From a virus, in the IMG/VR virus record IMGVR_UViG_3300020394_000061, positions 1-31,363 of that record: a stretch of DNA of 31,363 nucleotides; one strand, 5' to 3'. The first letter of the stretch is position 1. Each line of letters opens with the position of its first letter. The notes under the pieces were generated by a model. That model worked only from the letters and a program-made list of their open reading frames with translations. It was not told the DNA's origin and ran no database searches. Both the position numbers and the translations under genes were made by a program. This document shows positions 540 to 30,361 of the stretch, piece after piece.

Positions 540-549
540 GTAGCTAATA

Positions 550-572: not shown

Positions 573-577
573 CTACT

Positions 578-4403: not shown

Positions 4404-4405
4404 CT

Positions 4406-5086
4406 ATGTGTGGTGCAATTCCTATAGCTGTTATCTCAGGAGTCTTAGGTGTAGCTGGTAGCTATATGCAATACCAGCAAGCTAAGACAAATGTTGCATA
4501 TCAGAACGCCCAGCAAAATTTACAATATCAGAGCAGCATGTTACAGGCTCAGTCCAATCGGATGACTGAGGATGTAAAGAAACAGATGAATGAAGATGCT
4601 ATACAGCATGCAAATTATTTAGCAGATTTGCAATATGAAAGAGATAGCACCAGAATCACTATGAATCAGATGCAGCAACAAGAACAAGCAGCACAAGAGC
4701 AAACAGCAACTGGTCGGACATATTTACAAAAGAGAGGAGAAGTTGCAGCGATAAGAGGATTAGGAACAAACGCATGGACTTTGATTGCGGATATAAAACG
4801 CACACAAGCACAAGCAGACTTTATAACGAATCGAAATACTGCGTTTAGTTTGGCTGGTACTCAATCGCAGCGACTGGATGCTCAAGCTAATCGAGCCAGT
4901 AGGCGAGGCCAAACTGCAACGTATCTTAAGAAAACATTTCTTGACCCTGTTAAACCTTTGGAAATACCGAAGCCAAGCTTTGGGCCATATGCTCTTGGCA
5001 TGGCCAGTTCTGTCGTTGGCGGCTTTACTACTTATCATGGACTGAGAAGTGGAGACAACCCGATGCCTAATTGGGGATTTGGTTAA
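4406..5086 (+). CDS. Internal virion protein B (T7 gp14-like)
   Basis: 226 residues against 196 in T7 gp14. The N-terminus MCGAIPIAVISGVLGVAGSY is a short hydrophobic Gly/Ala-rich segment, followed by a long Gln/Ala-rich helical region, the usual gp14 design. In T7 gp14 is ejected first and makes the channel in the outer membrane. The C-terminus holds another Gly-rich hydrophobic stretch (ALGMASSVVGGFTTYHGL). It lies two bases after the previous stop, and its own stop is immediately followed by the gp15 ATG, so the ejection proteins are one translational unit. Assignment rests on order, N-terminal pattern and size. Confidence 0.85.
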   Translation: MCGAIPIAVISGVLGVAGSYMQYQQAKTNVAYQNAQQNLQYQSSMLQAQSNRMTEDVKKQMNEDAIQHANYLADLQYERDSTRITMNQMQQQEQAAQEQTATGRTYLQKRGEVAAIRGLGTNAWTLIADIKRTQAQADFITNRNTAFSLAGTQSQRLDAQANRASRRGQTATYLKKTFLDPVKPLEIPKPSFGPYALGMASSVVGGFTTYHGLRSGDNPMPNWGFG

Positions 5087-7747: not shown

Positions 7748-7763
7748 TATGGAGAAACTATAA

Positions 7764-16700: not shown

Positions 16701-16823
16701 CAAATTAGTAACTCAATTAAATACATGGAAGATAAGGAGAAGAGATTAGCCAACAGAGATAGCTTACCAACTTACGGAGTTGATGTTAGTCTTAATGAAT
16801 GGAGGGAAATTATTAATTCCTAG
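7764..16823 (+). CDS. Giant internal/ejection protein (gp16 position) with polyvalent-protein domains
   Basis: At 3019 residues (roughly 330 kDa) it is over twice T7 gp16 (1318) and fills 29% of the window. Visible parts in order: an acidic low-complexity head (residues 1-75); helical and Gly/Ala-rich segments; a coiled coil at about 490-620; a ParB/DdrB-like domain at about 640-960 with VIDGHNRLDLAKR (D707-GHNR-711); a second coiled coil at about 1120-1260; an HExxH zincin-like motif H1562-E-S-F-H1566 followed by the QGKGFRTWQDLFDDSYSGKI tail that accompanies such peptidases; a possible ADP-ribosyltransferase-like GEGAYFTSS at 1939-1947; and a gp16-like C-terminal third with NRTPTNIIKG and a hydrophobic segment near 2535-2565. 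The lytic transglycosylase domain at the T7 gp16 N-terminus is not seen. It is most likely packaged inside the head and ejected. GGAG stands 10 bases before the start. Gp16 role: position and C-terminus; effector activities: inference from motifs. Confidence 0.85.
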   Translation: MEENQVIESNVISKEDEDEEEEGGFDFGGYIPSYKKQNTDTNVEKEKKKEVINNDNNVEEFSPEVVNDESDDTLITRETNKEQYLKGLETGNVDTKKHFFFTNIEYAPEHLKGQKHWRNSLGDFLRMTDRAGMAAAQNLTNTAQDLLRMDMPASMAEVLSGDPLSAGMMLFKGIKSGIQNKSWVDFFDELGYRAGSNKMSLLDALGSSGGEVKNYQMFDAISAEDRMKGIDYGLFGMPSLTELSGGYPVRDTGRPFADGVTNFLGDGIPFFAIVAGIMAEPTPAGEIVFAKKSLATLKAKSPAFKTFYNMVSRDLLGKGMKGIGGQTIKNVTKFTVKEGLKGSTAGAIAEAFVGNPYQDLGLDPILPDFLDVGNRVDDTYIEAKIKSMIISEVFLGPLFGIGMGGLGVAARPITEPIGRVFTAFKGHQNKKQALNDAMKYISGINKKANQFKGERRNHLAVAYKLDMLKQVLDEGEKKIVEPALNYIVDSTIVRKAAESLGFVYREIDEVQREIDNIKVKNNTVTTEQVTRDTQLNLEKNKIRDEVRATNKEGRKKTKLYEELASEKARIKELEERLLELEKKLENGKNNFVKGINKAEKSEKDLITSMILDNQVRTTQEISAYEKLGVGSGARPKTPLEVQRINPNEIDIRPELFQIKESGRYNPKGVSGSLADQKEFDSRFAGVISVWKDETGEIGQAGKLYVIDGHNRLDLAKRSQVPEINAQIIQAPDKDAAIVEAAIININSYNYEQKGAVAAIDVAKIIRIQGIRPLMESGLGAKKKIVLEGLQLSRLPDFLFNKLLRGEIGQPKGLAYGSAEIPQQSITDVYKAIEKSNPSIDKIKQAVLMASEATEVNDDAQGVIPAFADYLKTTNAKELLEIRTQIASQLRKKLTRLRAVGTKDKKAGVEQVAGNKINLQNTQDALLIAQKTVDLFNAVAASGGRTTEIIKELAAQVKGKNASRLVSDNLERIQDALQLENKPLFKGSEVVRHQQEIDKTRLETLENMQSETQQKTYNNEELEALSNEPAFKEQVENLGDGQRDSIENQLKTKGVVTNNPSNIEGRSLSPLVTNPKARVFPEYFEGSDQNLLKNAIDMAGNVQKFSNFELQDAVERTKRFKLTSKQIKNIQAKKAKFEKANAVYEELDKQIQDLLEGKGKQGNLIELDPDKAETELDKLMAAREAADKERAKFVDERLSMHSDHMKLVSELETRKKDPQLNRVSNAREESLARKTEREKNKEIVDLKKAIDFKKNRGDYKTKKGYNLDEAQKIDNFTFAQYGAELEGKVDNQGKAYGRFYFGKPAPRFNNEVINFVNDLDIAIYTVGKQIANGTSRASKSHYKYVELLSDLGLTNNQILTRYREIVEELRSGIFDIEPSQNYYSSKLLRVISDMDKGMTDIAGRYDYNIDPEDIITGRVNKAKKELDEKILKEYKDVTNPKRPDELGPRENNDFYELIEYEGGELGTEEIYLSLAGTSRAEIQGLMQEVEKISGIDFKLVSDPIITKHNAKSAAAYGVPVGTKIAARGFYRAGQDPLKDLIVVSMIHGQDFANFSAISQTAYHESFHRLFQRYFTKQEHALLKGAEKQLRELAALVKPKMHDKIMGINGYKPLSFEEVVTTAASGYKEALTVYDKKVGKWGKVLDKVYDMVVRVKNFLQGKGFRTWQDLFDDSYSGKIAARGMTPEGAKLGTVGTDETMFEIDADELNNLFTDNLEGLADGSLSIEEVMSNVRRPLINRKWQTKGAKFYIPTSNKNFITANKTINQAMDNMVDAIMQPNQEFPELPAINTQQLINEGMALIEDIDGNVDEVMKIFRKVTKGDQFAQQDLATFMAVKMMRDGNNEMFSVAALNYMQDKSPQNAQLLLATFEDATKLNQAYAKWGRASGQRLSLMGKDVRLNEAQVSIEFMSKQRNVRLTGEIKSIEDALENGIKPTDQGLGEGAYFTSSEVPVTGDPSIEKTLIGTTERTNIIDAAEAGVNIRQILSDMQVNTIIGGKGLNAKQRKAIETFIRNNAADGIRIRGEEIGLEGDIIYIPDVQRANDIIGSKVAPAPEAEQKVTYNRETFQAALADGKNVLAEALDKETYDSILNGTPNDEARRILQALSEINPYLTDPDNGARIMRHINKYLQEAPKPMKASSIVAAFRNFIFLGIKTFTKVAVGSNYRAVMLPFNKQIGAGISALPAMGGKMNDDIFMAQQRQALQGLNGYIRSQKHLFQSLYLAMNAFKHDTNFGNIGRGQYEKGLAEGKMKLFEVENQTDLPANVELEPRQKIIEKAKGDEWWLSPDSGALQIFTKRVLNTFGTASSRMFSALDTLITSGSAIAQEEIRHIEMIMFDYVKRGIDITDPKVFREIELRAEELTRKSMLDVEMANGDIVRGGFFNSDSMQKTSDYIAFTDDIVVKKDKRTREYAIRRAREKGITDPMELHRFVEEYMQLADPASGSVDTTAANELLPDVARERMLPFTGNNSMGGIDAFPSKALNAIPYGIQKTQQYIPLTGLMFPVNRTPTNIIKGLLRQLPITAPIVDSFWRDINSEDLFVRENAIGEMVTGTVITGLGASLIASGQIQVTGGYGFNRQRREMMMEQRRPAWSIRFRKGDGTYSEWFSLEAFDVLGSLLSISATYKDMLEQMPIEDYMPIDYDSTRGLSGQKLDNEIQRLQDVSIVAAAHFLRYYKAAEKTVTSVVGGQLDKALFQNLNKLLKILRDLSKGNTDMTNYYSGARRPESDYARQIGTGLLIPQFLKAFRRGVDNKRRVYEDSDLPSMFGFIDNTFKEIGTQLPFLSYLFDPAIDEITGMPMTYSSSYDWYRVSNPLHRGILSMLNPMEAFTPTQEKDSGMAGVIYKELNRLHGKGAYPRFISRNILSNIGDPLDDKEFNNFKRIFTSEKLDFFGIGQPMTFQEALYYLITQDEKYSLMRDVNPALVATSQNVTEFGQVARKFPERISNERELTKLSRIKEIAKFYKEHAIKVYTQNTQGSGKQISNSIKYMEDKEKRLANRDSLPTYGVDVSLNEWREIINS

Positions 16824-16825
16824 CT

Positions 16826-17812
16826 ATGCCTTTTGCTCAATTTAAAGGTACTGGTGACAGTACAACAGTACAATTCCAGATACCATTTCCTTACGTCAAA
16901 AAAGACCACATTATCGTATCGCTCGATCAGGTAGCCAACACAAACTTTACCTATATCAATGATACGACTATTGTTTTTTCTCCTTTAAATTCAGTAGCTA
17001 CAGCTACGCAAGAAACATCTGGAGCTCCAAAAACAGGAGTAGAAATAATTATTAGTAGAGAAACGCCATTGCTTAATGCGTTGGTTGATTTTGTTGACGG
17101 CTCTACTCTTACAGCTGCTGACCTCGATACAGCTGTATTGCAGTTGCTATATGGATTACAAGAGGCAAAAGACGATACAGACGCTGGTATTAACTTCACA
17201 CCTGTAGGACTAGATGCAAGTAATAACCCAATAATTAATGTTCAAGACCCTACAAATCCACAAGACGCTACAACTAAAAAATATGTAGATGACAATATTG
17301 CTGGTTTTCTTAAGACAGATGGCTCTGTACCTATGGTCGGAGACTTTAATGCTGGTGGTAAAAAAATAACTAATGTACAAACAGCGACACAAGATACAGA
17401 CGCAGTTAATTTATTACAACTTAATCAAGGTATATCTACAGCAAATACGGCTCAAAATGCAGCAGCCCAATCAGCAGATGAGGCTGAAGATTTTAGGGAT
17501 GAAACTAAAGTCTTTAGGGATGAAGCTGAAACCTTTAAAGATAGTGCAGCAGCTTCGGCTGTTACGGCAGTTAATTTAGCTCGTAGGTCAGTATTTGTAG
17601 GTTTTAAAAAGCTAAGTGACGGAACATTGCAAATGACATATAATGAGGCCAGCGATACAACTGTTTACAAAGCAGAAGACTTCGTGCAAAATGGGGCTAG
17701 TCATGCCTACTTTTTAGGCGAAGATGTATTATCTACTACTGCTCCAAACGCCCCTAAGTTTTCGATTTCAAATTATCAAATGCTTAGAGGACATTTAGTT
17801 CTTGACATTTAA
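16826..17812 (+). CDS. Tail fibre protein with T7 gp17 N-terminal domain
   Basis: 328 residues; T7 gp17 has 553. Residues 1-120 match the T7 tail-fibre N-terminal domain that anchors fibres to gp11/gp12: FAQFKGTGDSTTVQFQIPFPYV at the start, then PLLNALVDFVDGSTLTAADLDTA and LQLLYGLQEAKD. Next is a phage-fibre repeat region (ATTKKYVDDNI, DGSVPMVGDFNAGGKKITNV, QDTDAVNLLQL), then a heptad-like Ala/Glu-rich coiled coil (about 205-250) with near-repeats DFRDE, VFRDE, TFKD. The short C-terminal part (255-328) is probably not the receptor-binding tip, since a 1084-residue fibre follows two bases later. It likely serves as the adaptor that carries the larger fibre. Confidence 0.88.
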   Translation: MPFAQFKGTGDSTTVQFQIPFPYVKKDHIIVSLDQVANTNFTYINDTTIVFSPLNSVATATQETSGAPKTGVEIIISRETPLLNALVDFVDGSTLTAADLDTAVLQLLYGLQEAKDDTDAGINFTPVGLDASNNPIINVQDPTNPQDATTKKYVDDNIAGFLKTDGSVPMVGDFNAGGKKITNVQTATQDTDAVNLLQLNQGISTANTAQNAAAQSADEAEDFRDETKVFRDEAETFKDSAAASAVTAVNLARRSVFVGFKKLSDGTLQMTYNEASDTTVYKAEDFVQNGASHAYFLGEDVLSTTAPNAPKFSISNYQMLRGHLVLDI

Positions 17813-17814
17813 TT

Positions 17815-20800
17815 ATGGCACAAATTGATTTAGGAAAACTCAAGTTTACTTGGAAGGGTACTTGGACTACGCAAACTGCATACGAAGTTGATGACGTTGT
17901 TGAGTATGATGGCTCAACTTTTATATGTATTGCAGATTTAAACGCTTCTAATACTTCGACTCCAAAAGATGCTACAGCGTCTTTTCAATATATGCAGACA
18001 GGACTAGCGTTTAAGAGTGGATTTAGTGCGACAGTTACTTATTACAAAGGAGATGTAATTACATATAATAGCCAGACATTTGTATGTACAGCAGGGGGAG
18101 GGAACTATAACCAGACAATACAGCAGAAGCCAGCACCATATGATGGCTCATCTGATTGGATGTTGTTAACACCAGCACCAGCTAACAATGTTTTAACTAC
18201 ATCTGGAGATCTAGTAGTAAGAGATAAAGATAACGCAACAAATACTAGATTACCTGTCGGAACTAAAGGCCAAGTTTTAAGAGTTGCGGAAGCACCAAAC
18301 CACGATATTCCAAATGATACAGTTCTGTTTTATAGCAGATTAGTCGTAAGCAATAGCCATACTGCTACTCTTTTGCATGGTACAGATTTTCCTCCATATG
18401 AAACTAAAACTTATGTGGTTACTGTGGCTGCTGCATCTAGTGGAGGTGGAAATAAATTTTACTTAGATGGTGTTGAAGCACCTTATCTATATTTAAGAGC
18501 TAACTCTGTTTATGTCTTTGACGTATCTGACGCTTCTAACCAGACACATGAATTGGATTTTGCGGTCAGCATACATACTGGCACAGTAAAACTATCTGAC
18601 CAAGATGGTGGTTACGTTACAAGGTCTGGAAACGTAGGAACTGCTAACGCAACTGTAACTCTTAAGATGCCTCCTTACGCAGAAATGGTAACTGGATATT
18701 ACTGTACTGCTCATAGTGCTATGGGTAGTACTATTGACTCAGGGCATGGTGGAAGTAGTGGATATGGAAATTACTCAGGTAATGTCGATCTACCAACTAT
18801 TTATACTAACATCACTAATAGTGGGCCAACAGCTAGAAAACTTGTTAAAGGTAAAAGCTATACATTCCAGTTTTCTCCTACTGCTGCTCAAAGAAACTAC
18901 GCTGTCAAAGATACAAATGATTCAGCTTATAACCAATACACTATTGGAGGAGCAGTTACAGATGGTGTAAGTCCAAGCCAAGTAAACACCACAACTACAG
19001 CTGGTGGATTCTTTACCTTTACTGTTCCAGAAACAGTAGCAACAAGTCTAGTAATAGAAGACTTTAGTGGCGGTACAGATGGACTACCTTTACAGATTAT
19101 TGACAGAACATTCTTACCTACATATACAGGTGGAGATTTTGCAGAAAAGAATGTTTTAACTTCGATTAAAGATAACTATAGAGAAAGAACATCTAACATA
19201 CTTCAGTTTAATAATTACCCCTGTATGTTTACCAATACATATACAGAGTCTATTAAGCCTTTACCAGAGTACTTGAAGAAAGCTGGTCGAGGATTAGGCT
19301 ATGGAGGGTTTAGTGGTCTTTATAGGCAATATGGATTTTTAGCCCAGAGGGAATATATGGGCGGTGGTAATATGTGGCAAAACGGAAGTTATGATTATAC
19401 CTATGGTGGCGGTATGGGATATGACGGACAAGACTGTGCTAGTGGAACTAGATGGTATCCTTCAGCTGGAAGTAGAGTACAGGGCTATAAGTTAAGACAA
19501 GCACTTGCTGGTAATCCTGATTATGCCCACCTTCTTACAGACTTAAATGGTAACGATTGTGGGATGTTAGACGCAAACGGAAACATCAGACATAGATTCC
19601 CAAGAATTATGCAAGTGCATGGCAATAGAAGTATTAAATATTTCTTATACGAAAATGGTATGGTTTGGTTTGCTGGATATAACGGATATGGATTAATGGG
19701 TGATGGAGGCACTAGGGATAGATGCCCTGCTCAAAGTCCTATGAAATGGTATGACGAAAGTACATCCGAATTAAAAGGTACGAACTATCCAAAAATTAAA
19801 CAGTTAGTAACTACTCATGGTCATACTCAAGATACTAGCAGTTACGATTATGGTTCAACTTATGCAGTAGATACGGAAGGCTATCTATATAGTTGGGGTT
19901 ACAATGGATATGGACAGTTAGGGGATGGAACTACTAACGGAAATTACTACGCAAAGAGAGTACCAAAGAGTGTATTTAATGATGAAAAAATATTATATGT
20001 AATGTGTAGTGGCTATAGATATACACATACTATGGTTATTACTGAATCAGGTAAGTGTTGGTCAACAGGCTATGGAGATCAAGGCCAGCTAGGTTTAAAC
20101 AATACATCCTCCAGAAGTGACTTTGCTGAAGTAACAGCAGTTAATGGTTCACCTTTAAATGGTAAGAAAATAATTCATATATTAATGAATCAGGATGGCG
20201 ATGCTGAAGGTAGAACATGGTGGCTTACTGAAGATGGTGAGGTTTATTACGCTGGATACTTCAGAGACTATGGACAGCAGACAGGTGTATATGACTCTAA
20301 TGGTTCTGGTGGTAATGGTATGCCTAGAATACTTACTAACTCCAGCACCCTATGGAATAGCGATAACCAAAAAGTTATTTATATGGCAAGTACTAATAAT
20401 AGATATTCAACTTTATGGTTTATTACAGATGGTGGAACTACAGGGTTAAGTCAAAAAATATACGCAACAGCATCTAACTATCATGGAGTTGCAGGGCATA
20501 ACATACAGCCTAATAATCATACTAACGACCCTGCACAGGGGGCTGGTTGGTTCGGTGGAGAAATACTGTTCTCTGACTTTGGAGATTACGAAGATGGTGG
20601 AGATAACAATAGACCAAACGAAGCTATAGGTAACTGGTCTAGTTTCCAAGATGGTGGTAGCAATGAAAAGAAAATGAAGATAGGAAAGATAGTAGAGATT
20701 ATTCCTAGAGGTACACCAGAGAATACATATAACTCTGTTGTTTTAGTAGATGAACATGGCTCATTGTTTATCTGTGGCTATTGGAACTACACACCAAGTA

Positions 20801-21069
20801 GGGCTTCTGAAAATGATAATCAGCACTACATAAGATACCAAGATCATTGGGTTCCATACTTTATTCATTGGCCAGATCAGCCAGCACAAATCTTAGAAGG
20901 TGGCTTTACTCATACTGGTAATGGCACAGAGAATGGTTGGTTTATTATGACTAAGGATGGTAACGTCTTACAAGGTGGAGATAACTCTTGGTATCAAAGA
21001 GGTAACTATAATGATTCTGGTTATAGCTCTACTCCTCCAACTTGGGCTACACTAGATACAAACGGATAG
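17815..21069 (+). CDS. Large tail fibre / receptor-binding protein with RCC1-like propeller
   Basis: 1084 residues with no T7 counterpart in this form. Residues about 8-120 hold two WxxG...YxxGDVV-type modules (KGTWTTQTAYEVDDVVEYDG, then VTYYKGDVITYNSQTFVC), resembling small carbohydrate-binding modules. Residues about 180-310 form a cupredoxin-like beta domain ending in Y295-Y-C-T-A-H-S-A-M-G304, common in marine phage fibres, and a related beta domain follows at 330-425. From about 560 to the end are RCC1-like blades: VWFAGYNGYGLMGDGGT (near 617), YLYSWGYNGYGQLGDGTT (near 690), KCWSTGYGDQGQLG (near 747), EVYYAGYFRDYG (near 809), SLFICGYW (near 983), NVLQGGDNSWYQRG (near 1050). This is probably the host-recognition protein, attached through the preceding gp17-like adaptor. 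Domain calls come from repeat pattern; the receptor is unknown. Confidence 0.82.
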   Translation: MAQIDLGKLKFTWKGTWTTQTAYEVDDVVEYDGSTFICIADLNASNTSTPKDATASFQYMQTGLAFKSGFSATVTYYKGDVITYNSQTFVCTAGGGNYNQTIQQKPAPYDGSSDWMLLTPAPANNVLTTSGDLVVRDKDNATNTRLPVGTKGQVLRVAEAPNHDIPNDTVLFYSRLVVSNSHTATLLHGTDFPPYETKTYVVTVAAASSGGGNKFYLDGVEAPYLYLRANSVYVFDVSDASNQTHELDFAVSIHTGTVKLSDQDGGYVTRSGNVGTANATVTLKMPPYAEMVTGYYCTAHSAMGSTIDSGHGGSSGYGNYSGNVDLPTIYTNITNSGPTARKLVKGKSYTFQFSPTAAQRNYAVKDTNDSAYNQYTIGGAVTDGVSPSQVNTTTTAGGFFTFTVPETVATSLVIEDFSGGTDGLPLQIIDRTFLPTYTGGDFAEKNVLTSIKDNYRERTSNILQFNNYPCMFTNTYTESIKPLPEYLKKAGRGLGYGGFSGLYRQYGFLAQREYMGGGNMWQNGSYDYTYGGGMGYDGQDCASGTRWYPSAGSRVQGYKLRQALAGNPDYAHLLTDLNGNDCGMLDANGNIRHRFPRIMQVHGNRSIKYFLYENGMVWFAGYNGYGLMGDGGTRDRCPAQSPMKWYDESTSELKGTNYPKIKQLVTTHGHTQDTSSYDYGSTYAVDTEGYLYSWGYNGYGQLGDGTTNGNYYAKRVPKSVFNDEKILYVMCSGYRYTHTMVITESGKCWSTGYGDQGQLGLNNTSSRSDFAEVTAVNGSPLNGKKIIHILMNQDGDAEGRTWWLTEDGEVYYAGYFRDYGQQTGVYDSNGSGGNGMPRILTNSSTLWNSDNQKVIYMASTNNRYSTLWFITDGGTTGLSQKIYATASNYHGVAGHNIQPNNHTNDPAQGAGWFGGEILFSDFGDYEDGGDNNRPNEAIGNWSSFQDGGSNEKKMKIGKIVEIIPRGTPENTYNSVVLVDEHGSLFICGYWNYTPSRASENDNQHYIRYQDHWVPYFIHWPDQPAQILEGGFTHTGNGTENGWFIMTKDGNVLQGGDNSWYQRGNYNDSGYSSTPPTWATLDTNG

Positions 21070-21073
21070 TACT

Positions 21074-21382
21074 ATGAATCACAGAAAACCTTTCTTAGAA
21101 AACAAATCATTATTTACGAAATGGTTTAAGCATGAACTAACTGGCAAGACAGCAGCCAATGGAGTAGGCATGATGGAGAAGGTCGCCAATGATAAAAAGG
21201 ATGATAACTGGATGAAATTAACTGACCCATATAAGGATGATACGACTGATTTAAAATATGGGATAGTCGTTGCTGAAGCAAACTTCGACCCTACTAACTG
21301 GACTAACGATACTGTCACACTAACAGAAATGACTGCTGACGAGCAGACAGCAGCCAAGAAGTTAGTTAATTGGGATAGTTAA
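21074..21382 (+). CDS. Hypothetical 102-residue protein at the end of the tail module
   Basis: I do not recognise this protein. It is soluble-looking and rich in Lys, Asp, Thr and Trp, with no membrane segment or signal peptide. The first 45 residues are basic (RKPFLENKSLFTKWFKHEL) and the rest is acidic and Thr/Asn-rich, ending EQTAAKKLVNWDS. It starts four bases after the RCC1 fibre stop with only a weak purine stretch ahead, and its TAA overlaps the scaffold stop on the other strand by four bases. Last place in the tail operon suggests a small fibre-associated or assembly protein, but this is only positional. Confidence 0.7.
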   Translation: MNHRKPFLENKSLFTKWFKHELTGKTAANGVGMMEKVANDKKDDNWMKLTDPYKDDTTDLKYGIVVAEANFDPTNWTNDTVTLTEMTADEQTAAKKLVNWDS

Positions 21383-22155
21383 AATATATTAGAACGACTT
21401 AGTTTGTCTTCTACTCTTGCACGATAGGCTTCATCCTTTGCGTATCGAGGGTCATTCATAGCAACTTCTAATTGAGCTACGCTTTCAAACTTATCAGCTG
21501 AACCAGATACAGGTCGGCCAGATAATAGATCAGGCTCATTGCCTACAGCTGCAACATATCTAGCATGGAGTCCAGCTACTGTTAGCTTGACTTGTTCTAT
21601 ATTCTTAGAGTTAATACCAGATGAGTAAGCGGCTTTCTCTGCATCTGTTAAGTTACTAGCAGCCCACTCTTGCATGTTGGCAAAGTTATCCTCGCCATAG
21701 CTATCTCTTATAGCGTAGATCTCTCTTTCAGTTACAGCGAAATCTTCTTTCAATCCTTTAAGGTGAGCATCTACTAAGTCTCTAGGTAGTCCAGCTTGTT
21801 CTAGTTCCTTGTAATGAGCATCAGTAATCTCTCCCTTCTCTTGCCAATATTCATTCATTGATTTGTAATCAACATTAGCTTGTTCGAGAATGTTACCGAC
21901 TGCTTCGCCATATATCTCTTGAGCAGTACCCATTGGCTCTGGAGCTTCTTGGGTTCTTGCTGCTTTCAATTCGTTGTAAGCGTTAAGCAAGTCCTCTTGA
22001 GTCTCGAACTCTCCACCTATAAGCTCTTGCTCTTGTGGTAAGTTGCCTTCTTTCTCTAGTTCAGCTGCGGCTTGCTCTAAGCTTTCAACCGCTGCTTGAT
22101 TCTGTTCGTCTACTGAACCAGTAGGCTGTTGGCTAATTGTAATTTCGTCTGGCAT
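21379..22155 (-). CDS. Scaffolding / capsid assembly protein (T7 gp9-like)
   Basis: 258 residues, shorter than T7 gp9 (307). The design is typical: an acidic Gln/Glu-rich N-terminal half, the motif GGEFETQEDLLNAYNELKAA near residue 47, a helical middle, DSYGEDNFANMQEWAASNL near 150, and the C-terminal DPRYAKDEAYRARVEDKLSRS ending SNIF, the basic helical tail that contacts the capsid protein. It directs head assembly and leaves the prohead. A very strong ribosome binding site, GGAGG, precedes the ATG, and its GGAGGTAA also contains the stop of the overlapping 63-codon frame upstream. Unlike T7, the capsid gene does not follow: the stop meets the tail module head-on. Confidence 0.93.
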   Translation of the reverse strand: MPDEITISQQPTGSVDEQNQAAVESLEQAAAELEKEGNLPQEQELIGGEFETQEDLLNAYNELKAARTQEAPEPMGTAQEIYGEAVGNILEQANVDYKSMNEYWQEKGEITDAHYKELEQAGLPRDLVDAHLKGLKEDFAVTEREIYAIRDSYGEDNFANMQEWAASNLTDAEKAAYSSGINSKNIEQVKLTVAGLHARYVAAVGNEPDLLSGRPVSGSADKFESVAQLEVAMNDPRYAKDEAYRARVEDKLSRSNIF

Positions 22156-22158
22156 AAG

Positions 22159-22350
22159 TTACCTCCTTCCATTTCTATTAGTAAGTTCTTCCACCATTTG
22201 TGGGGTAATGACAATCTCTTTAACCTTTGCTTCAGGGTCAGGCGGCTGGGAGTCCACTTGCATCGATGGCTGGAAGCTGCTGGTTTGTTCCATCTGTGGG
22301 GAGGGGTTCTCCTGTTTCGGGGTTGATTCCTTCTTTGAATTGGGGGCCAT
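22159..22350 (-). CDS. Possible 63-residue protein overlapping the portal 3' end
   Basis: A 63-codon frame begins inside the portal gene (+1 relative to it), overlaps its last 113 bp, and continues 79 bp to a TAA lying inside the scaffold's ribosome binding site. In favour: the ATG is preceded by AAGGAG at 6-base spacing; it fills an 82-bp gap that would otherwise be exceptional in this gene-dense block; and stop and downstream ribosome binding site are fused as in coupled genes. The product is Pro/Gln/Ser-rich for 40 residues and then ends in a helix-like VKEIVITPQMVEELTNR. It could also be the end of an extended portal made by frameshifting, or chance. I recognise no homologue. Confidence 0.4.
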   Translation of the reverse strand: MAPNSKKESTPKQENPSPQMEQTSSFQPSMQVDSQPPDPEAKVKEIVITPQMVEELTNRNGRR

Positions 22351-23992
22351 AAGGTGCTCCTTGTTTTGTAAAATTGTCCGCTAACTTTGCAGCTGCTGGA
22401 CTTGCTATCATCTTACCCATCATCTCTTGTTCTTGCATAGTCTTTTGACTGTTAGCTAGATCTTCTGCTTCCTTCTGTAATTGCTCTGGAGTCTTAACTA
22501 GGTTGGCTGTATCAATAGAACTACTTGCTGCTAACCTTCTTAATGCTTCTTCCATATTTATATATTGAGTCATAACTTCTGGGCCAAGTGCTTCTTTGGC
22601 CGCACCAATAAATTCTAATAACTTGTTCCTGTCATCACCTCTACCTATAGCTTCCATACCAGTAATAGGCTTGGGATGTATTAATGTTTCACCGCCTTCA
22701 CCCTTTGGAAACTCAGGTATCTTTCTAGTTTTTTGTAATATAAATATAAGTCTCTTAACTAAAGGTAGCTGTAGTTCTTGAGTCAGCTGTGAGTACAAGC
22801 CACCAAGACTGGCTTCTAACTCTTGACTTGAATATCTTATCTCTTCTGCTGTAACTCTTTCAGCTGGTCTTTGTACTGCACTATTAAGTAGGAAAGCAAA
22901 CTGTAATCTATTCTCAATCCTATCAATAGTATTGTTAGCTAGAGATAAATCATTTAGTTTACCTTGAGCTTGTAGTACTGTTACATCATTTGCTGACCCT
23001 TGTATAACTGCTCCATTTTCAGCCTGTACTAAAGTGCGTGGTCTTGTTGTTCCAGATGGAGACACCATAAACAAAACCTTCGAGAGCATAGCACTTGCTT
23101 CGAGGATGCTTTGATACAAATTTTCTAATGCAGTAAGGTCGCCATACCATTGCTCAATATAAGAACGACCATAATGTTCTCCTTCAATCTGACTCCAGCG
23201 AAGAGGAATAAAAGGAGAGCAATCTGCTGGTGACATACCATAAGTGTTTGGTACTGCTTTACCTTTTACTTCCTGATACCACATACACTTACCTTCCTTA
23301 TACTTCACGCATGTATATATCTTGATAGCTTTCTCTTTATTGTTGTAATCGTTTTTATCTTGCATATCTTTAGGCAAGAAATCTTTAGGCAATACACTTG
23401 GACTTACTTCTTCTTCAATAATAATTTCATTCACATTGCCCATTGGGTCACGATGAATAGTGTAGTTCTCTAAGTGTATGACTCTTATACCTGTTGGGTT
23501 TATATAAAGTAAAACATTGCCAGCAATAATTAATTGCTTGAAGGCTTCGTGCATACTAGCTCTGAAACTCATAGTCTCAAGCATGTTGCTAACCTGTTGC
23601 TCTACTTTTACAAGGGCTGTATCAAGTTGCGTCTTAGCTTCTGGGCCTTGTTCTGCGACTATCATTGCTAGCCCATCTATCTCAAGCTTGAAGAAGCCTG
23701 TATTGATAGGGAACAAATTTATGCCAAGCTTGTTTGCAATATTTAAAACTCCCCTTGCTCCCATACTTTGGTGCGGTGTATCTACCTTACCTTTCTCGCC
23801 ATAATAATCCTCTGGAAATTCAAACGGAATAGTAACCTTTGCATTTTTTCTTGCACGTTCACTATATGGTTGTCTGTTTGATTTCGCTTGACTGTACTTA
23901 GATGCAACAGTAACGCCTTTCTTCTGCTCCATAGCAGATTTATAAGCGTTAGTTTTATCTACGCTACTGGTTAAGGTTACTTCATTATTCAT
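22238..23992 (-). CDS. Portal protein, head-tail connector (T7 gp8-like)
   Basis: 584 residues (T7 gp8: 536). Family features: N-terminal SKYSQAKSNRQPYSERARKN, TIPFEFPEDYYGEKGKVDTP, the GARGVLNIANKLGINLFPIN stretch, FRASMHEAFKQLIIAGNVLLY, RWSQIEGEHYGRSYIEQWYG, and GLYSQLTQELQLPLVKRLIF in the C-terminal half. It forms the dodecameric ring at one vertex that starts head assembly, passes DNA during packaging and binds the tail. The last 30 residues are Pro/Gly-rich and disordered-looking, and are overlapped by another possible frame. It starts 5 bases after the gp7.3-like gene. The start was chosen as the first ATG in the frame. Confidence 0.93.
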   Translation of the reverse strand: MNNEVTLTSSVDKTNAYKSAMEQKKGVTVASKYSQAKSNRQPYSERARKNAKVTIPFEFPEDYYGEKGKVDTPHQSMGARGVLNIANKLGINLFPINTGFFKLEIDGLAMIVAEQGPEAKTQLDTALVKVEQQVSNMLETMSFRASMHEAFKQLIIAGNVLLYINPTGIRVIHLENYTIHRDPMGNVNEIIIEEEVSPSVLPKDFLPKDMQDKNDYNNKEKAIKIYTCVKYKEGKCMWYQEVKGKAVPNTYGMSPADCSPFIPLRWSQIEGEHYGRSYIEQWYGDLTALENLYQSILEASAMLSKVLFMVSPSGTTRPRTLVQAENGAVIQGSANDVTVLQAQGKLNDLSLANNTIDRIENRLQFAFLLNSAVQRPAERVTAEEIRYSSQELEASLGGLYSQLTQELQLPLVKRLIFILQKTRKIPEFPKGEGGETLIHPKPITGMEAIGRGDDRNKLLEFIGAAKEALGPEVMTQYINMEEALRRLAASSSIDTANLVKTPEQLQKEAEDLANSQKTMQEQEMMGKMIASPAAAKLADNFTKQGAPYGPQFKEGINPETGEPLPTDGTNQQLPAIDASGLPAA

Positions 23993-23997
23993 TTAGT

Positions 23998-24309: not shown

Positions 24310-24318
24310 AGTTACCTC

Positions 24319-24501: not shown

Positions 24502-24539
24502 AAGTAATGGTAAGTTATATACATAATACTTTAATTACT

Positions 24540-24695
24540 ATGGCTAGAAAAGGATTGTATTACAACATAAATAAAAGAAAGAAGGCTGGTACAAGTAGAA
24601 GTAAAAAAGATAGCACTATAACACCACAAGCTTACGCTAATATGAAAGCTGGTTTCCCTAAGAAAAAGAAAAAGAATCCACTAGATATTGCTTAA
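24540..24695 (+). CDS. Small basic MARKGLY-type protein, opposite strand to its neighbours
   Basis: 51 residues beginning MARKGLYYNINKRKKAGTSR and ending KKKKKNPLDIA, about one third Lys/Arg. Short basic proteins starting MARKGLYxNI with a KKAGTSR core and PxAYxNMKAGFPKK end occur, from memory, in marine T7-like and T4-like phages; their function is unknown, and DNA or RNA binding is a guess from charge. I chose the ATG at 24540 because the conserved MARKGLY start lies there; an in-frame ATG at 24507 would add 11 unconserved residues. No Shine-Dalgarno sequence precedes it, and a CATAAT hexamer at 24522-24527 would allow a nearly leaderless transcript. Its TAA overlaps the exonuclease stop by two bases more than adjacency (shared TTAA). 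It is the only + strand gene in the replication half. Confidence 0.72.
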   Translation: MARKGLYYNINKRKKAGTSRSKKDSTITPQAYANMKAGFPKKKKKNPLDIA

Positions 24696-25423
24696 GGTTT
24701 CCATAGTTTAACCTTACCTGTTTTATTGTTATAGTCTTCTGCTCTTAGTATCCTAGCCAACCTTGCTGTAAGCAATGCTTCTTTATGTCCACCTGATTTC
24801 TTCTCGTATTCTTTAACGACTATATCCCACATCTCTTCTAATGTTTTACTGTCGCCTAGTATCTTGTTAGCTGTTACTGTACCCACGCCAGTTATACCTT
24901 TATAGTTGTCAGTCATATCTCCAGTTAGTGCCATAATCATCCAGTTCCTATCCGCTTGCCTTCTTGTTATAAGTTCCAAGTCATCTCCAGCTAGTAGCTT
25001 GCAGGGTATGGTTCGCATGTCTTTATCTGGACTAACAATTATAGGGTCATCTAACTCTTTGCTTGTAGCAAGTATGCCAAGTACGTCATCGCCTTCGAGG
25101 TTGTCATACCTAACACACTTGTATCTATTTGTAAGTGCATCCATCACGCCTTTAAGTGCTAATGGTTTTCTTCTGCTCTTGCGGTTGGCTTTGTAATCCT
25201 GATACAAGTCATGCCTAAAGGTAGGGTAGGAAGTAAAGCACATAATAACTTCACCTTCATCTTCGGATACTTCTTTGTATCCCTTGATGTATGTCTCGAT
25301 AAGATCTAACGCCCAACTAGGTCGTGAGTACAATACATGCAAGTTGTCATCGAACTTGTCATCGCTCTCTACTGCATAGCAGCAATGGTAACAAAGCCAG
25401 TCGGCATCAATTAATAAAGTCAT
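24692..25423 (-). CDS. 5'-3' exonuclease (T7 gp6-like, FEN/PIN fold)
   Basis: 243 residues (T7 gp6: 300). The metal-binding acidic residues of the flap/5' nuclease family are in place: LLIDADW (D6, D8), the NLEGDDVLG segment (E110, D112, D113), SPDKDM (D133, D135) and LTGDMTDN (D169, D172), followed by the helix-hairpin-helix-type DNA-binding GITGVGTVTANKIL (176-189). It removes RNA primers and degrades host DNA to nucleotides for phage synthesis. Its ATG shares one base with the primase-helicase stop (TAATG), so no room remains for the DNA polymerase gene that separates gp4 and gp6 homologues in T7. Confidence 0.9.
   Translation of the reverse strand: MTLLIDADWLCYHCCYAVESDDKFDDNLHVLYSRPSWALDLIETYIKGYKEVSEDEGEVIMCFTSYPTFRHDLYQDYKANRKSRRKPLALKGVMDALTNRYKCVRYDNLEGDDVLGILATSKELDDPIIVSPDKDMRTIPCKLLAGDDLELITRRQADRNWMIMALTGDMTDNYKGITGVGTVTANKILGDSKTLEEMWDIVVKEYEKKSGGHKEALLTARLARILRAEDYNNKTGKVKLWKP
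24693..24716. terminator. Weak hairpin at the convergent end of the 51-residue gene
   Basis: TAAGGTT (24693-24699) can pair with AACCTTA (24710-24716) around a 10-base loop. It begins at the stop codon of the + strand gene and lies in the last codons of the exonuclease gene on the other strand. A T-rich stretch (TTTTATTGTT) follows at 24721 on the + strand. It might end the short + strand transcript. The stem is mostly A-T, so chance is quite possible. Confidence 0.25.
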
Positions 25424-27021
25424 TAGAAGTTTGTAAGTGAAGGTGTAAGGCGGCCAGTAGATTCGTTGTATTGCAACTTATCTGCTTTGCCCAAGCATCC
25501 GTTATGTCTATTCTTTAGTACCTTTAGCTGTAGTTCATTGCTTCCTTCTTCTGATTGCTGCGATCTAATGCCACACATAACAAGGTCACTTAACTGGGCT
25601 ATGGACTGCGACCCTCTTAAGGCGGCCAAGTTTATGTCGCCTCCCTCTTCAGCTGGTTTGCCATCTGTTCTACGCAAGTGACTGACCATAACTAAACCTA
25701 CGCCTGTCTTCTCTACTACCTGTCTTAGCTTGGTGCAGCATACATCTATTTGTTTTCTTTCATCTCCATCGCTTAGTCCAGATACCACAAGACTAAGGTG
25801 ATCTAGGAATATTACATCGCACTCTTCACCAGTAGCCATATATGTTATCTGATCTATTAATCGATCAGGGTCTAGTGAACCAAAGTGTTGCAGCAATACA
25901 AACCTATTGTCACTAAATAAATAATCAAATGCTTGTCGTAACTCTTTCTCATCAACAGCCTTCTCATCTATATGCAATGGTTTGTTTAAGGCAATGGATA
26001 GGATGCCTTGCATACTTCTCTTACTGCTCTCTTCGAGGCCAATCCACCCCACCTTAAGATTATGGTTAAGGAAATGATAAGCCATCTCCCTACAAAGTAG
26101 GCTCTTCCCCACGCCAGTACCAGCACAGATTGTAGTCAGCGACTGCTTTCTATATCCTTGCACCATCTTGTTTAGTTCTGGAAAAGGATAGCTACATATC
26201 TGTGAGTTATCTTCTTTAACTAGATCTTCCCATAGATCGTAGGCAGAGAATATGTTGTCGGGTCTGACAGGACTTGCTTTGAAGAGGAGATCTCTGAGTA
26301 GCTCGCCCTCCCCTGCGAGGAGCATTTCATTAGCATCCTTTCTTGGTAGGTGAGCGATAGCTGCTTTACCAGTAGGTAAGATTTTTGCAACCTTTTCGGC
26401 AGCATGAACACCAGCTGGGTCGGAGTCAAAACAAATAACGATACGAACAAACTGAGATAACCATTTTAAATTTGCAGCTACATACTTGGTAGCAGATTGA
26501 GCACCTGATGGCAAACTTACAACTGGAAAGTAATTGCCTGTATTAGATCTTGTACATTGAGCTATGCTGAGACAGTCGATCTCGCCCTCTGTAATTGTTA
26601 CAAAAGAACTACCAGTATTAAACTGTCTCCATAACTCTTGACCCCATAGCTTTATATCCGACAAGTCTCCCTTCCATATAAATCTTTTATCTTTAAACCT
26701 TATATGTTGAGCAGCAACTAATCCACTTTGATCTCTGTAAGTTGCCACCTGACAATCAGTTCCGTTTAATTTAGATACTCCATAGTTAAAAAACTTACAA
26801 GTCTCTTCTGTTATGCCACGTTTTGGTAGGGCACAAGGGATTGGAGTTAGTGGATTCCATTCTTTTTTCATTGGTACAAACGTGGGTTTCTTCAAAATTT
26901 TTTTGGGCTGAAATTGCCAACCACATCCAAAGCAATGCTTATGTCCATCATCGTAAACAGCTACATTATCTTTGCTGTTACATTCTGGGCAAGGTTCTTT
27001 GCTTATGTATTTACTCGGCAT
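25423..27021 (-). CDS. DNA primase-helicase (T7 gp4-like)
   Basis: 532 residues (T7 gp4A: 566). The N-terminal zinc ribbon is present (C11, C14, C30, C33), so this is the primase-competent form. The TOPRIM primase core has EGEIDCLS (145) and FDSDPAG (198-204). The C-terminal hexameric helicase has Walker A AGTGVGKS (300-307), Walker B VIFLDHLS (403-410), the SHLRR motif (447-451) and the nucleotide-sensing LRGSQSIAQLSD (468-479). It unwinds the fork and lays down primers. T7 gp4 ends in an acidic tail with a terminal Phe that binds the polymerase; here the end is SLTNF, keeping the Phe without an acidic run. It overlaps endonuclease I by 11 bp. Confidence 0.95.
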   Translation of the reverse strand: MPSKYISKEPCPECNSKDNVAVYDDGHKHCFGCGWQFQPKKILKKPTFVPMKKEWNPLTPIPCALPKRGITEETCKFFNYGVSKLNGTDCQVATYRDQSGLVAAQHIRFKDKRFIWKGDLSDIKLWGQELWRQFNTGSSFVTITEGEIDCLSIAQCTRSNTGNYFPVVSLPSGAQSATKYVAANLKWLSQFVRIVICFDSDPAGVHAAEKVAKILPTGKAAIAHLPRKDANEMLLAGEGELLRDLLFKASPVRPDNIFSAYDLWEDLVKEDNSQICSYPFPELNKMVQGYRKQSLTTICAGTGVGKSLLCREMAYHFLNHNLKVGWIGLEESSKRSMQGILSIALNKPLHIDEKAVDEKELRQAFDYLFSDNRFVLLQHFGSLDPDRLIDQITYMATGEECDVIFLDHLSLVVSGLSDGDERKQIDVCCTKLRQVVEKTGVGLVMVSHLRRTDGKPAEEGGDINLAALRGSQSIAQLSDLVMCGIRSQQSEEGSNELQLKVLKNRHNGCLGKADKLQYNESTGRLTPSLTNF

Positions 27022-27460
27022 ACCATTCTTTTGGGATAGTTTTGTTACACCAAAGAAAGCCGTGACGTTCAGCCCATTGCCAATACGTCAGGCTTCTCTT
27101 GGCTTTACTAAGTTTGTTGTTTGCGTTTTGAAAACAGAACCGCAAGCTTAGTGTGGGATGTTGCGTCTTGACTGCAATATATTTTTTTCTCTCTTCTTTA
27201 AGTAGCGTTCCTTTGAGTTCAACCACACATGAAGGAAGGATGATGTCAGGAGTGTAGCTACTGCTGATGATGTAATCATAGCTGACAGTTTCATAGCTGA
27301 ATTGTACATTCTTTTTGATTAAGTCAGAGGCAACTTGAGCCTCGAACTTTGATCTAAAATGTACTACCCCCGAAGGAGTTTTCAACGTTTGAGGGTGTGA
27401 GGTCTTGCGTTTCGTTTTTGCTTTGGAACTTGAACCCTGAGAGGTCTGTCGTTTTTTCAT
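27011..27460 (-). CDS. Endonuclease I, Holliday junction resolvase (T7 gp3-like)
   Basis: 149 residues, same as T7 endonuclease I. The family core is present: HFRSKFEAQVASDL (E40), SYTPDIILP (D72), VELKGTL (E81, K83), matching the T7 catalytic set E20, D55, E65, K67, and the C-terminal IPKEW. It resolves branched replication intermediates and helps break host DNA. Compared with T7 the conserved core starts about 20 residues later; the extra basic N-terminus (KKRQTSQGSSSKAKTKRKTS) is encoded out of frame over the SSB C-terminus, a 107-bp overlap. A TTG at codon 26 is a possible shorter start, but it has no ribosome binding site. Confidence 0.88.
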   Translation of the reverse strand: MKKRQTSQGSSSKAKTKRKTSHPQTLKTPSGVVHFRSKFEAQVASDLIKKNVQFSYETVSYDYIISSSYTPDIILPSCVVELKGTLLKEERKKYIAVKTQHPTLSLRFCFQNANNKLSKAKRSLTYWQWAERHGFLWCNKTIPKEWYAE

Positions 27461-27989
27461 ATGGAACGAATTTCATAATGACTATGGCTTCTGGTTGGAC
27501 TGTTAATCCAACACCATACTGCGGATGGTTGTAGCCTTGTACTCTTAGCTTGGCTTGTACTGTTGTTCCTCTACCTAGTCCTATGTACTTCTCTCTTTCC
27601 TCTCCTGTAATTGGAGTGCCATACTTATCGACTAATACTGGCGGTGTATTCTTAAATCTATTAGCACCTTGCCCAGCTTCAACAGGCTTTTTACATTTGA
27701 TTGACAATACTTTCTTGCCCTCGAAGTCAGTAAACTCATACCTTGAGTGTTCTCCTAATTTAAAAGTTGTATCTGGGAAGGCTGCTTTTAGCTGACCTTT
27801 CCATTGGTCAAGTCCATCTTCGAATTGTTGGAACACCATTGCTGTTTCTTTATCGTCTGTATCTAGCAATAAAGTTACGCTCCATTCTGGTGCTTTATTA
27901 AAAGCATCATCTGGTTTAACTAGATGACTCCATGCAACACCGCACTCTGGGGTGAAGATATAAAAAGGTTTTGCTTTGATCTGGCTCAT
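27354..27989 (-). CDS. Single-stranded DNA-binding protein (T7 gp2.5-like)
   Basis: 211 residues (T7 gp2.5: 232). The OB-fold pattern of the family is visible: GVAWSHLVKPDDAFNKAPEW, then SVTLLLD, SRYEFTDFEGKKVLSIKCKK, RGTTVQAKLRVQGY. It coats single strands and coordinates polymerase, helicase and annealing. T7 gp2.5 needs a strongly acidic C-terminal tail ending in Phe. Here the final Phe is kept (GGSTF) but the last 25 residues hold few acids, and this is exactly the region overlapped by the endonuclease frame (SSB residues 177-211). Its ATG overlaps the RNA polymerase stop (ATGA). Confidence 0.9.
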   Translation of the reverse strand: MSQIKAKPFYIFTPECGVAWSHLVKPDDAFNKAPEWSVTLLLDTDDKETAMVFQQFEDGLDQWKGQLKAAFPDTTFKLGEHSRYEFTDFEGKKVLSIKCKKPVEAGQGANRFKNTPPVLVDKYGTPITGEEREKYIGLGRGTTVQAKLRVQGYNHPQYGVGLTVQPEAIVIMKFVPYEKTTDLSGFKFQSKNETQDLTPSNVENSFGGSTF

Positions 27990-30361
27990 GTTATGAAATA
28001 GGTTGATGAACGTGTAAGTAAAACATCTAGCTCTCCATGAGTAGGCTCTGGAGGTAGTGCTTCTATTTGTTTGTCTGTTAATTGGGCTTTCAATTCTCCC
28101 TTTAGTTTTGACAGTTGATCTACTGAATACATATCAGCGAATGACTGTCTAACTGAGTTACGGAGTAGACTCATTTCAGACGGCGTAGTTACGAAACAAT
28201 CGTGGATGCCAGCGATATTTTCGACTCCCCTTATTGAAGCATGAATCGTAGAAAATGCCATATGACTTGCATCAAAACTATGTAATATATTTGCTGAGAT
28301 CGCATGCCCCATCTTCTTTGTATTAAAATCTGGGGTATCCTCGTTTGTTCTTATATCTAGATATACGTCAGATAAATAACGTAATTGTATTCTTATTTTT
28401 TTTGGGTCGTAATACTTCTGTTCAACATACAAACCAGTAGGGCTAGTCCAATGTACTGCTTTGTTTACTTTACCTAGCTCTCTACCTATAGCTCTAAACC
28501 ATTTCATTGCTACGCATGCTGGTTCGATAGCCTTTGCTGACTCCTGATACAGCACGTTAGCCATATAACTTACTGTACTCATAGCACCTTTACCTCTTGT
28601 CCAGTTATTCTTGCCTAGCATTGACCCACGCTCGATAGCCCAACTGTAGGCGTGGTGATAGAAAGCACTATTAGTTGCTGAGTATGGTGCTGTCATAACG
28701 CAAGGCTTAGTCAATGATCTATCCACGTTTAACATCAACCACTTGCTAGCTCTTGGGTCTTTAGCCTGTACTAATCTCTGGTTTACTTTGCTTGCAACTT
28801 CGCTGTATATATCTTGTGGTCTATCGCTATTAATTAAATTAACTTTCTCTCCCATTACTTTGTCACGGAGCAAACCTGAGAAGTGCTGAATAGAACTGCA
28901 AGTGCAATCAAGGTGGCAGGGAAGCTGACATAAATAGCTACTTGGTTCTTGTTGATAAAGATAGATTGCCCTGCAAAAAGCAAGAAAACTCCAAGCCTTA
29001 TCTGCTCGCAACCAAAAGTCAGGGGCTGTCCAACAATCTCTACCAATTCCATAAATAGTTTTTAAATTATTATTAACCCAATCTATCTTTGTTTGAAAGT
29101 CATGTTTGATTCCATACATATTTGCACCATGTATTTTTAACCACGACAAATCATCTTCCGTTTTGATTAGCTTGCCGTTTGTAAATTGCAGTAGTGCTCT
29201 TGATAAATCATTGCCTTGAGAATTAAGAAAAGGAACTCTATCATATACTCGACCTCTAAAATCTAGTTGCTTTGGAAAGTATAAGTTAGGTTCATCTTTA
29301 TATTTCTCAGCCATCCATAACATCTTGGCAATACCTATGCGACTACCTTTAGTTTGGTTATTCTTATCTATAATTCTCTTGCAGTTTATTCTCCATTTAA
29401 TAACAAGTGGGTCGTCTTCATCTAAATGTTTAGGGTATGGCGGTACTGCATATCCATCTCTTGGTAATAAGCAGCCTATCTCTAGGTTGTTATCGTAAGC
29501 ATGCAGCACCTGATCTAAAATATATTTATTAATACACCAGCTAACTTCCCCTTGTATGTTGGCTACTTTTAAAAAGGCTGTATCGTTGTATATTCTAGAG
29601 GCTATCTCTTTGTTATTACTTTTAAATAAATTAAATTTTATATTCTCATTGTAGTATCCACCATCATATGGGTTACTCCATCGCTTCGGTTTAATAAGCA
29701 TAGGTAAGAAGTTAGGGCTGGTTATTCTAACTTCAGTATCAATTTTTTTTACCCACTCCATACACTTGTCGGTTGCTCGAACCATTCGTCTTGCTGGCTT
29801 GCAAGATTTATCTAAAAAAATTTCTATTAATCCAGTATATTTTTGTATAAGTTCGACCATAAATAATCCACTTGCCATCCGCTGTCTTGGATTCCAGTAT
29901 TCTGTATTAGTCATATTGTTTATTAAAAATATTCTGTATCTTTTTTTATGCCTACCTTTCTTGTACTTAGATAACTCACTATCTGTAGCTCTATCGAGCA
30001 TTGTCTCTATCCATATCTTTTCGATAACACCAGCTGCTAGCTGATGCAGACTTGGTGTACTAGATAAGGTATCGACTACAGATCTAATGGATGCAGCTGC
30101 AATTTGTTGGGGTGGTAATTCTAGTAAGGGGGTAAGCATTGCATAGTTAGTGCCAGCTTTTCCCTGCTCTATTTTCCTCCTGATGGCTCGCAAGTGACTG
30201 ACAATTATATCCACATTAAAAGAGCATAGAGCCTCGCCATAAATGGTGAGAGACTCCATGCTCGCTGCTTGTTTTCGATTGTGTTGTGATCTTATTCTAT
30301 TCTGACCCATGTTTAACATCAGGTCTTCATTAGCTAGTTGATCGTCAAGGCTTCGCATCAC
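27986..30361 (-). CDS. Phage DNA-directed RNA polymerase, single subunit (T7 gp1-like)
   Basis: 791 residues if begun at the GTG at 30361; the ATG one codon later (30358) is the more likely start. T7 RNAP has 883, and the N-terminal domain is shorter here. Catalytic landmarks: DFRGR (367-371), motif A with D485 (LDCTCSSIQHFSG, T7 D537), motif B with K552 and Y560 (T7 K631, Y639), HSFDASH (694-700), and motif C IHDCF with D721 (T7 D812). It transcribes middle and late genes from phage promoters. The promoter-specificity segment (656-670) differs from T7 at the base-reading positions. The C-terminal foot is TYFIT, not T7's FAFA. A 58-residue ribbon-helix-helix gene overlaps its start by 17 bp and its stop overlaps the SSB ATG. 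Confidence 0.95.
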   Translation of the reverse strand: MMRSLDDQLANEDLMLNMGQNRIRSQHNRKQAASMESLTIYGEALCSFNVDIIVSHLRAIRRKIEQGKAGTNYAMLTPLLELPPQQIAAASIRSVVDTLSSTPSLHQLAAGVIEKIWIETMLDRATDSELSKYKKGRHKKRYRIFLINNMTNTEYWNPRQRMASGLFMVELIQKYTGLIEIFLDKSCKPARRMVRATDKCMEWVKKIDTEVRITSPNFLPMLIKPKRWSNPYDGGYYNENIKFNLFKSNNKEIASRIYNDTAFLKVANIQGEVSWCINKYILDQVLHAYDNNLEIGCLLPRDGYAVPPYPKHLDEDDPLVIKWRINCKRIIDKNNQTKGSRIGIAKMLWMAEKYKDEPNLYFPKQLDFRGRVYDRVPFLNSQGNDLSRALLQFTNGKLIKTEDDLSWLKIHGANMYGIKHDFQTKIDWVNNNLKTIYGIGRDCWTAPDFWLRADKAWSFLAFCRAIYLYQQEPSSYLCQLPCHLDCTCSSIQHFSGLLRDKVMGEKVNLINSDRPQDIYSEVASKVNQRLVQAKDPRASKWLMLNVDRSLTKPCVMTAPYSATNSAFYHHAYSWAIERGSMLGKNNWTRGKGAMSTVSYMANVLYQESAKAIEPACVAMKWFRAIGRELGKVNKAVHWTSPTGLYVEQKYYDPKKIRIQLRYLSDVYLDIRTNEDTPDFNTKKMGHAISANILHSFDASHMAFSTIHASIRGVENIAGIHDCFVTTPSEMSLLRNSVRQSFADMYSVDQLSKLKGELKAQLTDKQIEALPPEPTHGELDVLLTRSSTYFIT

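Follow-up and report, generated by a model that had tools for sequence, protein, structure and literature searches.

A T7-like phage related to the MPP-C cyanopodoviruses: missing DNA polymerase gene, altered helicase tail and inverted late module

The DNA analysed here (the window) comprises the 31,363 nt of the metagenomic IMG/VR record IMGVR_UViG_3300020394_000061, is known from sequence and represents a fragment of a marine T7-like phage that begins within the capsid gene, without the terminase and most early genes. No DNA polymerase gene lies between its primase-helicase (gp4) and exonuclease (gp6) genes, where T7 has gp5, and by its gp4 the phage appears to belong to, or to be sister to, the MPP-C cyanopodoviruses. 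Polymerase-less phages of this kind have already been published, and cultured MPP-C isolates are described as growing without an identifiable polymerase (Cai et al., 2022, PMC9860041), so that the absence itself is not new; what is new here is the changed helicase tail and gene order. The present analysis adds a subclade marked by an inversion, the decay of the gp4 tail and a second polymerase-less group of T7-like phages. We consider it probable that gp5 was lost in the MPP-C ancestor and that a host polymerase does the synthesis, the Pol III holoenzyme being a better candidate than Pol I.

Twenty proteins of the window were scanned against Pfam and PHROGs (Table 1). On the minus strand the genes run in the order RNA polymerase, single-stranded DNA-binding protein (SSB), endonuclease I, primase-helicase, exonuclease, portal and scaffold, and on the plus strand in the order cut capsid, gp11, gp12, gp14-like protein, two large proteins, tail fibre and tail-tip-like protein. 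T7, P-SSP7, Syn5, HTVC031P and CRP-361 resemble the window in that T7-type RNA polymerase, gp2.5, endonuclease, gp4 and gp6 follow each other in the same order, but in each of the five gp5 stands between these last two genes, and the gp4 protein terminates in DF. Measured against the T7-type replisome, the window retains the gp4 primase-helicase and a gp2.5-type SSB, whereas gp5 between gp4 and gp6 and the negatively charged gp4 tail are absent. Among the minor features of the map, the genes for SSB and endonuclease I share 107 bases, read in different frames (27354-27460, minus strand), and this overlap recurs in relatives. A basic 62-aa ORF on the strand opposite to its neighbours (24507-24695, plus strand) overlaps the exonuclease end by 4 bases and matches phrog_25774, of unknown function (1.7e-20), and the 1084-aa tail-tip-like protein (17815-21069, plus strand) contains RCC1 repeats and a CBM_5_12 carbohydrate-binding match.

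Table 1. Positions of the main features; unless a locus or contig is named, positions are those of the window
Feature	Positions	Strand	Matches and remarks
late module: capsid C-terminal part, gp11, gp12, internal proteins, tail fibre, tail tip	3..21382	+	inverted relative to P-SCSP1
scaffold	21379..22155	-	Phage_T7_Capsid assembly family 5.8e-13; 3' end abuts inverted tail module
portal (head-tail connector)	22238..23992	-	Head-tail_con 2.8e-78
gp6-like 5'-3' exonuclease	24692..25423	-	243 aa; 5_3_exonuc_N 1.3e-14, phrog_107 1.7e-52
gp4-like primase-helicase	25423..27021	-	532 aa; Helic-prim_T7_N 1.2e-15, DnaB_C 8e-19, phrog_239 8.7e-166
T7 endonuclease I homologue	27011..27460	-	Phage_endo_I 2.4e-27
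gp2.5-like ssDNA-binding protein	27354..27989	-	phrog_112 9.1e-18; terminal phenylalanine retained
T7-type single-subunit RNA polymerase	27986..30361	-	RNA_pol 9.9e-79
beta-clamp-like protein	L590 982-1731	-	weak profile match
beta-clamp-like protein	G066 7819-8469	+	weak profile match

A sequence-only reading of the window had held that primase-helicase and exonuclease share one base and that no family A polymerase is encoded, and both statements stand. The TAA stop of the former and the ATG start of the latter meet at base 25423 (TAATG, minus strand), and a search of the window with PF00476 (DNA_pol_A) gave no match, the same search being positive in 5/5 polymerase-bearing control phages (P-SSP7, T7, Syn5, HTVC031P and CRP-361). 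Nor did the Pfam and PHROGs scan of the 20 window proteins return a DNA polymerase; the single match so named, phrog_906 'DNA polymerase/primase' (E 0.002), falls on the primase-helicase itself. PF00476 was likewise without a match in a set of 22 records (0/22: the window, P-SCSP1a, P-SCSP2 and 19 IMG/VR relatives) and in 33 further related records searched alongside the five controls; many records of both sets are fragments.

Conceivably, the gene could lie outside the window or have been lost in assembly, since the window is incomplete and begins within the capsid gene, and relocation was indeed one of the options of the earlier reading. A second IMG/VR contig, G001 (37,023 bp), matches the window at 99.93% over 1-19503 and at 99.86% over 21962-31363, and, as a contig of the same species, covers the rest at 99.9% identity. 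Its bases 19504-27621 are the ~8.1 kb (8,118) absent from the window and encode the remainder of the capsid protein, the two terminase subunits, early proteins and small proteins without an assigned function. The largest ORF there is a 576-aa terminase, and G001, this region included, gave no polymerase match. Moreover, gp4 abuts gp6 in all 34 loci whose gp4 is at least 80% identical to that of the window, so that close relatives do not keep gp5 in this place. Because 34/34 relatives share the junction and the gap region of G001 is without a polymerase match, the absence is not an assembly loss, and an assembly deletion was rejected. The P-SCSP1a and P-SCSP2 genomes, both recorded as complete, also have no PF00476 match and a gp4 that abuts gp6, and a polymerase gene outside the window is in our estimate extremely improbable. 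Within the locus set, L075 is alone among MPP-C-type loci in having gp4 and gp6 separated by an insert (694 bp); the 232-aa ORF there (L075 2153-2851) was no polymerase according to tblastn. In its early region, the window's own species also encodes an ArdA-like antirestriction protein (L085 5270-5869, equal to G001 25270-25869; PF07275 7.9e-14).

The phage might instead encode a very divergent DNA polymerase that profiles miss, an option kept open by Cai et al. (PMC9860041). Neither Pfam nor PHROGs returned a match for the 886-aa protein; for the 3019-aa protein (7764-16823, plus strand) Pfam was likewise empty, and PHROGs gave a single match, named 'portal protein' (9.3e-20). However, profile comparison with gp5-type polymerases gave a probability of 0.1 for each of the two, against 100 for T7 gp5; for the 886-aa protein the homologue alignment is poorly conserved, and a scan with the single protein returned only the same-species contig. 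The 886-aa protein is 21-46% identical among relatives whose gp4 is 72-92% identical, and both genes sit between the gp14-like gene and the tail fibre, the position at which T7 has its internal virion proteins. The only other ORFs of at least 300 aa in G001 are all identified. For want of a profile match, a polymerase hidden in either large protein was rejected, and we judge a divergent phage-encoded enzyme, perhaps of a wholly new fold, to be very unlikely. By eye, the 3019-aa protein shows VIDGHNR (residue 705, ParB/Srx-like), HESFH (1562, zinc-peptidase-like) and GAYFTS (near 1941); the three stretches bearing these motifs gave nothing significant against Pfam.

The closest cultured phages by gp4 are the Prochlorococcus phages P-SCSP1a-u (73% identity) and P-SCSP2 (51%), and in quick gp4 trees the window groups with the P-SCSP phages, apart from polymerase-bearing cyanopodoviruses (SH-aLRT 100). 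This comparison uses gp4 alone, whereas the published MPP-C clade rests on nine genes (PMC9860041). The nine cyanopodovirus core genes are all present, with exonuclease, primase-helicase, capsid, scaffold, portal and tail tubes A and B in the window and both terminase subunits in G001, and the window and G001 share the MPP-C feature 'no identifiable DNA polymerase gene' (0 matches). MPP-C phages are characterised by a lack of auxiliary metabolic genes; none was seen among the 20 window proteins and the scanned G001 proteins, which take in part of the small ORFs. By arithmetic the genome would measure ~39.5 kb (31,363 + 8,118), outside the 37.3-37.9 kb of MPP-C (PMC9860041), which is a range among published isolates and not a strict definition. 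P-SCSP1a-u and P-SCSP2 share with the window the order RNA polymerase, SSB, endonuclease, primase-helicase, exonuclease, portal and scaffold, except that the endonuclease is not annotated in P-SCSP2.

Unlike P-SCSP1 and P-SCSP2, and in departure from the T7-like gene order of MPP-C, the window's subclade carries its capsid-to-tail module in inverted orientation. In the window, bases 1-21382 are inverted relative to P-SCSP1, with the junction near 21380, where the scaffold gene and a 102-aa ORF converge tail to tail with a 4-base overlap. Seven contigs (L005, L006, L009, L020, L022, L027 and L032) align straight across this scaffold-tail junction. Where a locus includes late genes along with portal or scaffold, the late module runs opposite in 17 entries (16 contigs, L009 being part of G004) and in line in 54 (G013 and L043 belong to one contig), and mixed cases are absent; gp4 identity to the window is 80% or higher in every inverted locus and 73.3% or lower in every standard-orientation one. 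Since 16 other contigs share the orientation and seven cross the junction, the inversion is a real and conserved trait of the subclade. The earlier suggestion that the flip went together with a relocation of the polymerase fails, and the inversion was rejected as the cause of the loss, because relatives in both orientations are without the polymerase, among them P-SCSP1a, P-SCSP2 and G013 in the standard one. The words 'inversion' and 'inverted' are absent from PMC9860041, and PMC10575957 contains nothing starting with 'inver'; this concerns these two texts and is not a claim that the wider literature is silent.

What distinguishes the polymerase-less fork at the protein level? In T7, negatively charged gp4 tails contact positive patches on the polymerase, and removal of the tail cuts processivity threefold (PMC8472574). 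The gp4 of the window ends in TGRLTPSLTNF, a neutral tail instead of an acidic one, which is what one would predict if gp4 no longer meets a gp5-type partner. Loci were gathered around the gp4 of the window, P-SSP7, HTVC031P, CRP-361 and P-SCSP2, keeping the best 80 per scan and not deduplicating between scans. The gp4 end is visible in 397 loci, 280 of which also show the exonuclease start; the 117 with either gene end unseen were excluded from the tail counts. A polymerase follows gp4 in 122 of the 280 (gaps all >1 kb), gp4 and gp6 abut without a polymerase in 157, and one has a 694-bp insert without a polymerase (L075, which stands outside the 157 abutting loci and inside the 158 of the distinct-tail analysis below). 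Among these best 80 per scan, gp4 ends in phenylalanine in 118/122 polymerase-bearing loci versus 7/157 polymerase-less ones, the seven including the window and its nearest kin with their neutral tail, and it ends in [DE]F in 109/122 versus 0/157 abutting loci. The terminal phenylalanine of T7 gp2.5 serves the polymerase; wherever an SSB was found, this residue is present, in 107/107 polymerase-bearing and 128/128 polymerase-less loci.

When 79 gp4 cores, trimmed of their tail ends, were placed in a quick tree, the polymerase-less loci formed one group (SH-aLRT 100); like the quick tree of 135 rows described below, this tree carries SH-aLRT support and no bootstraps. The tail change in MPP-C therefore counts as one evolutionary event, not 157, and independent polymerase-less cases were sought for this reason. 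Of 2641 phage records matching a joined gp4-gp6 query, 23 covered 80% or more of it at a single place: 18 P-SCSP phages, S08-C159, three phages of MedDCM group G9 and Kolga. PF00476 is absent from all three G9 phages (Nohivirus S31C1, Krakvirus S39C11 and Oinezvirus S37C6). Two other candidates were rejected: Kolga, which has PF00476 despite its joined match, and the gut phage MT835557, which has a polymerase. Like the window, the G9 phages are T7-like, with gp4 near gp6 and no gp5 between; unlike in the window, small genes separate their gp4 from gp6, and gp4 itself, only ~30-34% identical across the joined query, falls in a separate tree group. In a midpoint-rooted gp4 tree of 135 rows, built after two more scans, G9-type gp4 stands apart from MPP-C, whose nearest neighbours are the polymerase-bearing L470 and L471 (SH-aLRT 89). 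Support is 100 for the MPP-C group and 84 for the G9 group, and the fewest changes amount to two; the strongly supported branches alone force one, and long branches meet within G9. It is likely, but not proven, on the basis of these gp4 sequences that the polymerase was lost twice among T7-like phages.

Distinct 15-residue gp4 tails were then compared by group, leaving out loci L574 and above as distant or false matches. A net charge of -2 or lower is found in 79/83 polymerase-bearing tails, 2/46 MPP-C, 0/8 further MPP-C-like, 1/18 Krak-type, 1/7 Nohi-type and 15/15 Oinez-type tails. Endings in [DE]F number 61/83 in polymerase-bearing phages versus 0/94 over all polymerase-less groups, and a plain terminal phenylalanine occurs in 72/83 polymerase-bearing, 2/46 MPP-C, 0/8 further MPP-C-like, 1/18 Krak-type, 5/7 Nohi-type and 2/15 Oinez-type tails. 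The acidic character is thus lost in MPP-C, in Krak-type and mostly in Nohi-type phages, and not in Oinez-type phages.

Two of 33 records searched, both of them polymerase-less contigs of G9 type, contain a gene for a beta-clamp-like protein: G055 (24249-24980), from which the sequence was taken, and G066 (67% identity). The protein matches TIGR00663 (E 0.0086) and PF02767 (E 0.006), both below the curated cut-offs, and phrog_947, 'DNA polymerase processivity factor' (1.6e-4), a RusA-named PHROG scoring better (4.5e-8); against the PDB, DnaN chains top the list at E 0.64 or worse. The assignment of this putative clamp is weak. A sliding clamp was also sought in the window and the searched MPP-C records and was not found. 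A 'DNA polymerase III beta subunit' is listed for the freshwater cyanophage S-SRP02, which has G9 phages among its tabulated best hits (PMC8790148).

We envision that a gp5-type DNA polymerase gene once separating gp4 and gp6 was lost in the MPP-C ancestor, which retained the T7-type RNA polymerase, SSB, endonuclease, primase-helicase and exonuclease. Fork opening and priming would then fall to the phage primase-helicase and SSB, and primer extension to a host polymerase, the Pol III holoenzyme more plausibly than Pol I. The sequence-only reading had offered a different or host polymerase as one explanation, and its host variant now emerges as the likely one: PF00476 is absent in 22/22 and 33 records, the 34 junctions abut, and cultured MPP-C isolates grow. 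Against this picture as a whole speak the single origin of the tail change within MPP-C, the acidic tails that the polymerase-less Oinez-type phages keep (all 15 distinct ones), the terminal phenylalanine kept in five of the seven Nohi-type gp4 tails and in every SSB found in the polymerase-less loci, the negative clamp search in the window and the searched MPP-C records, and the weakness of the clamp assignment. The enzyme recruited in place of Pol III might alternatively be host DNA polymerase I, which Cai et al. list first (PMC9860041); gp5 is of the Pol I family, so that a T7-type helicase and SSB may fit it, and the SSB phenylalanine persists in 128/128 polymerase-less loci. Yet the tail with which the T7 helicase meets its family A polymerase is decayed in MPP-C, and Pol I is mainly a repair enzyme (PMC9860041), and we regard its recruitment as unlikely. 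What tips the balance towards Pol III is the decay of the tail that would contact gp5 and, indirectly, the clamp-like protein of the two G9-type contigs.

From a broader perspective, T7-like phages may have lost their polymerase at least twice, rewiring the gp4-gp2.5 machinery onto the host replicase, with the acidic tail eroding in MPP-C and Krak-type phages and an own clamp steering host Pol III in some phages of the second lineage. This broader reading is tentative and somewhat doubtful, and we keep our confidence in it low because the well-supported branches alone do not force two losses. If it is true, such phages would naturally combine a T7-type fork with the replicase of a bacterium. 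The decayed tail, together with the possible clamp of a second polymerase-less group, makes it a concrete question whether the phage helicase works with host Pol III.

A further observation concerns an annotation in the G9 group. In L429 (5328-6059, equal to AP013546.1 20750-21481), a gene of a G9 phage annotated 'DNA polymerase I' encodes a 5'-3' exonuclease of 243 aa, and PF00476 finds no match in that record. The S-SRP02 paper names ORF34 DNA polymerase I from its match to the AP013546.1 phage (PMC8790148), and since the source gene is an exonuclease in a record without PF00476, this name may be a carried-over error.
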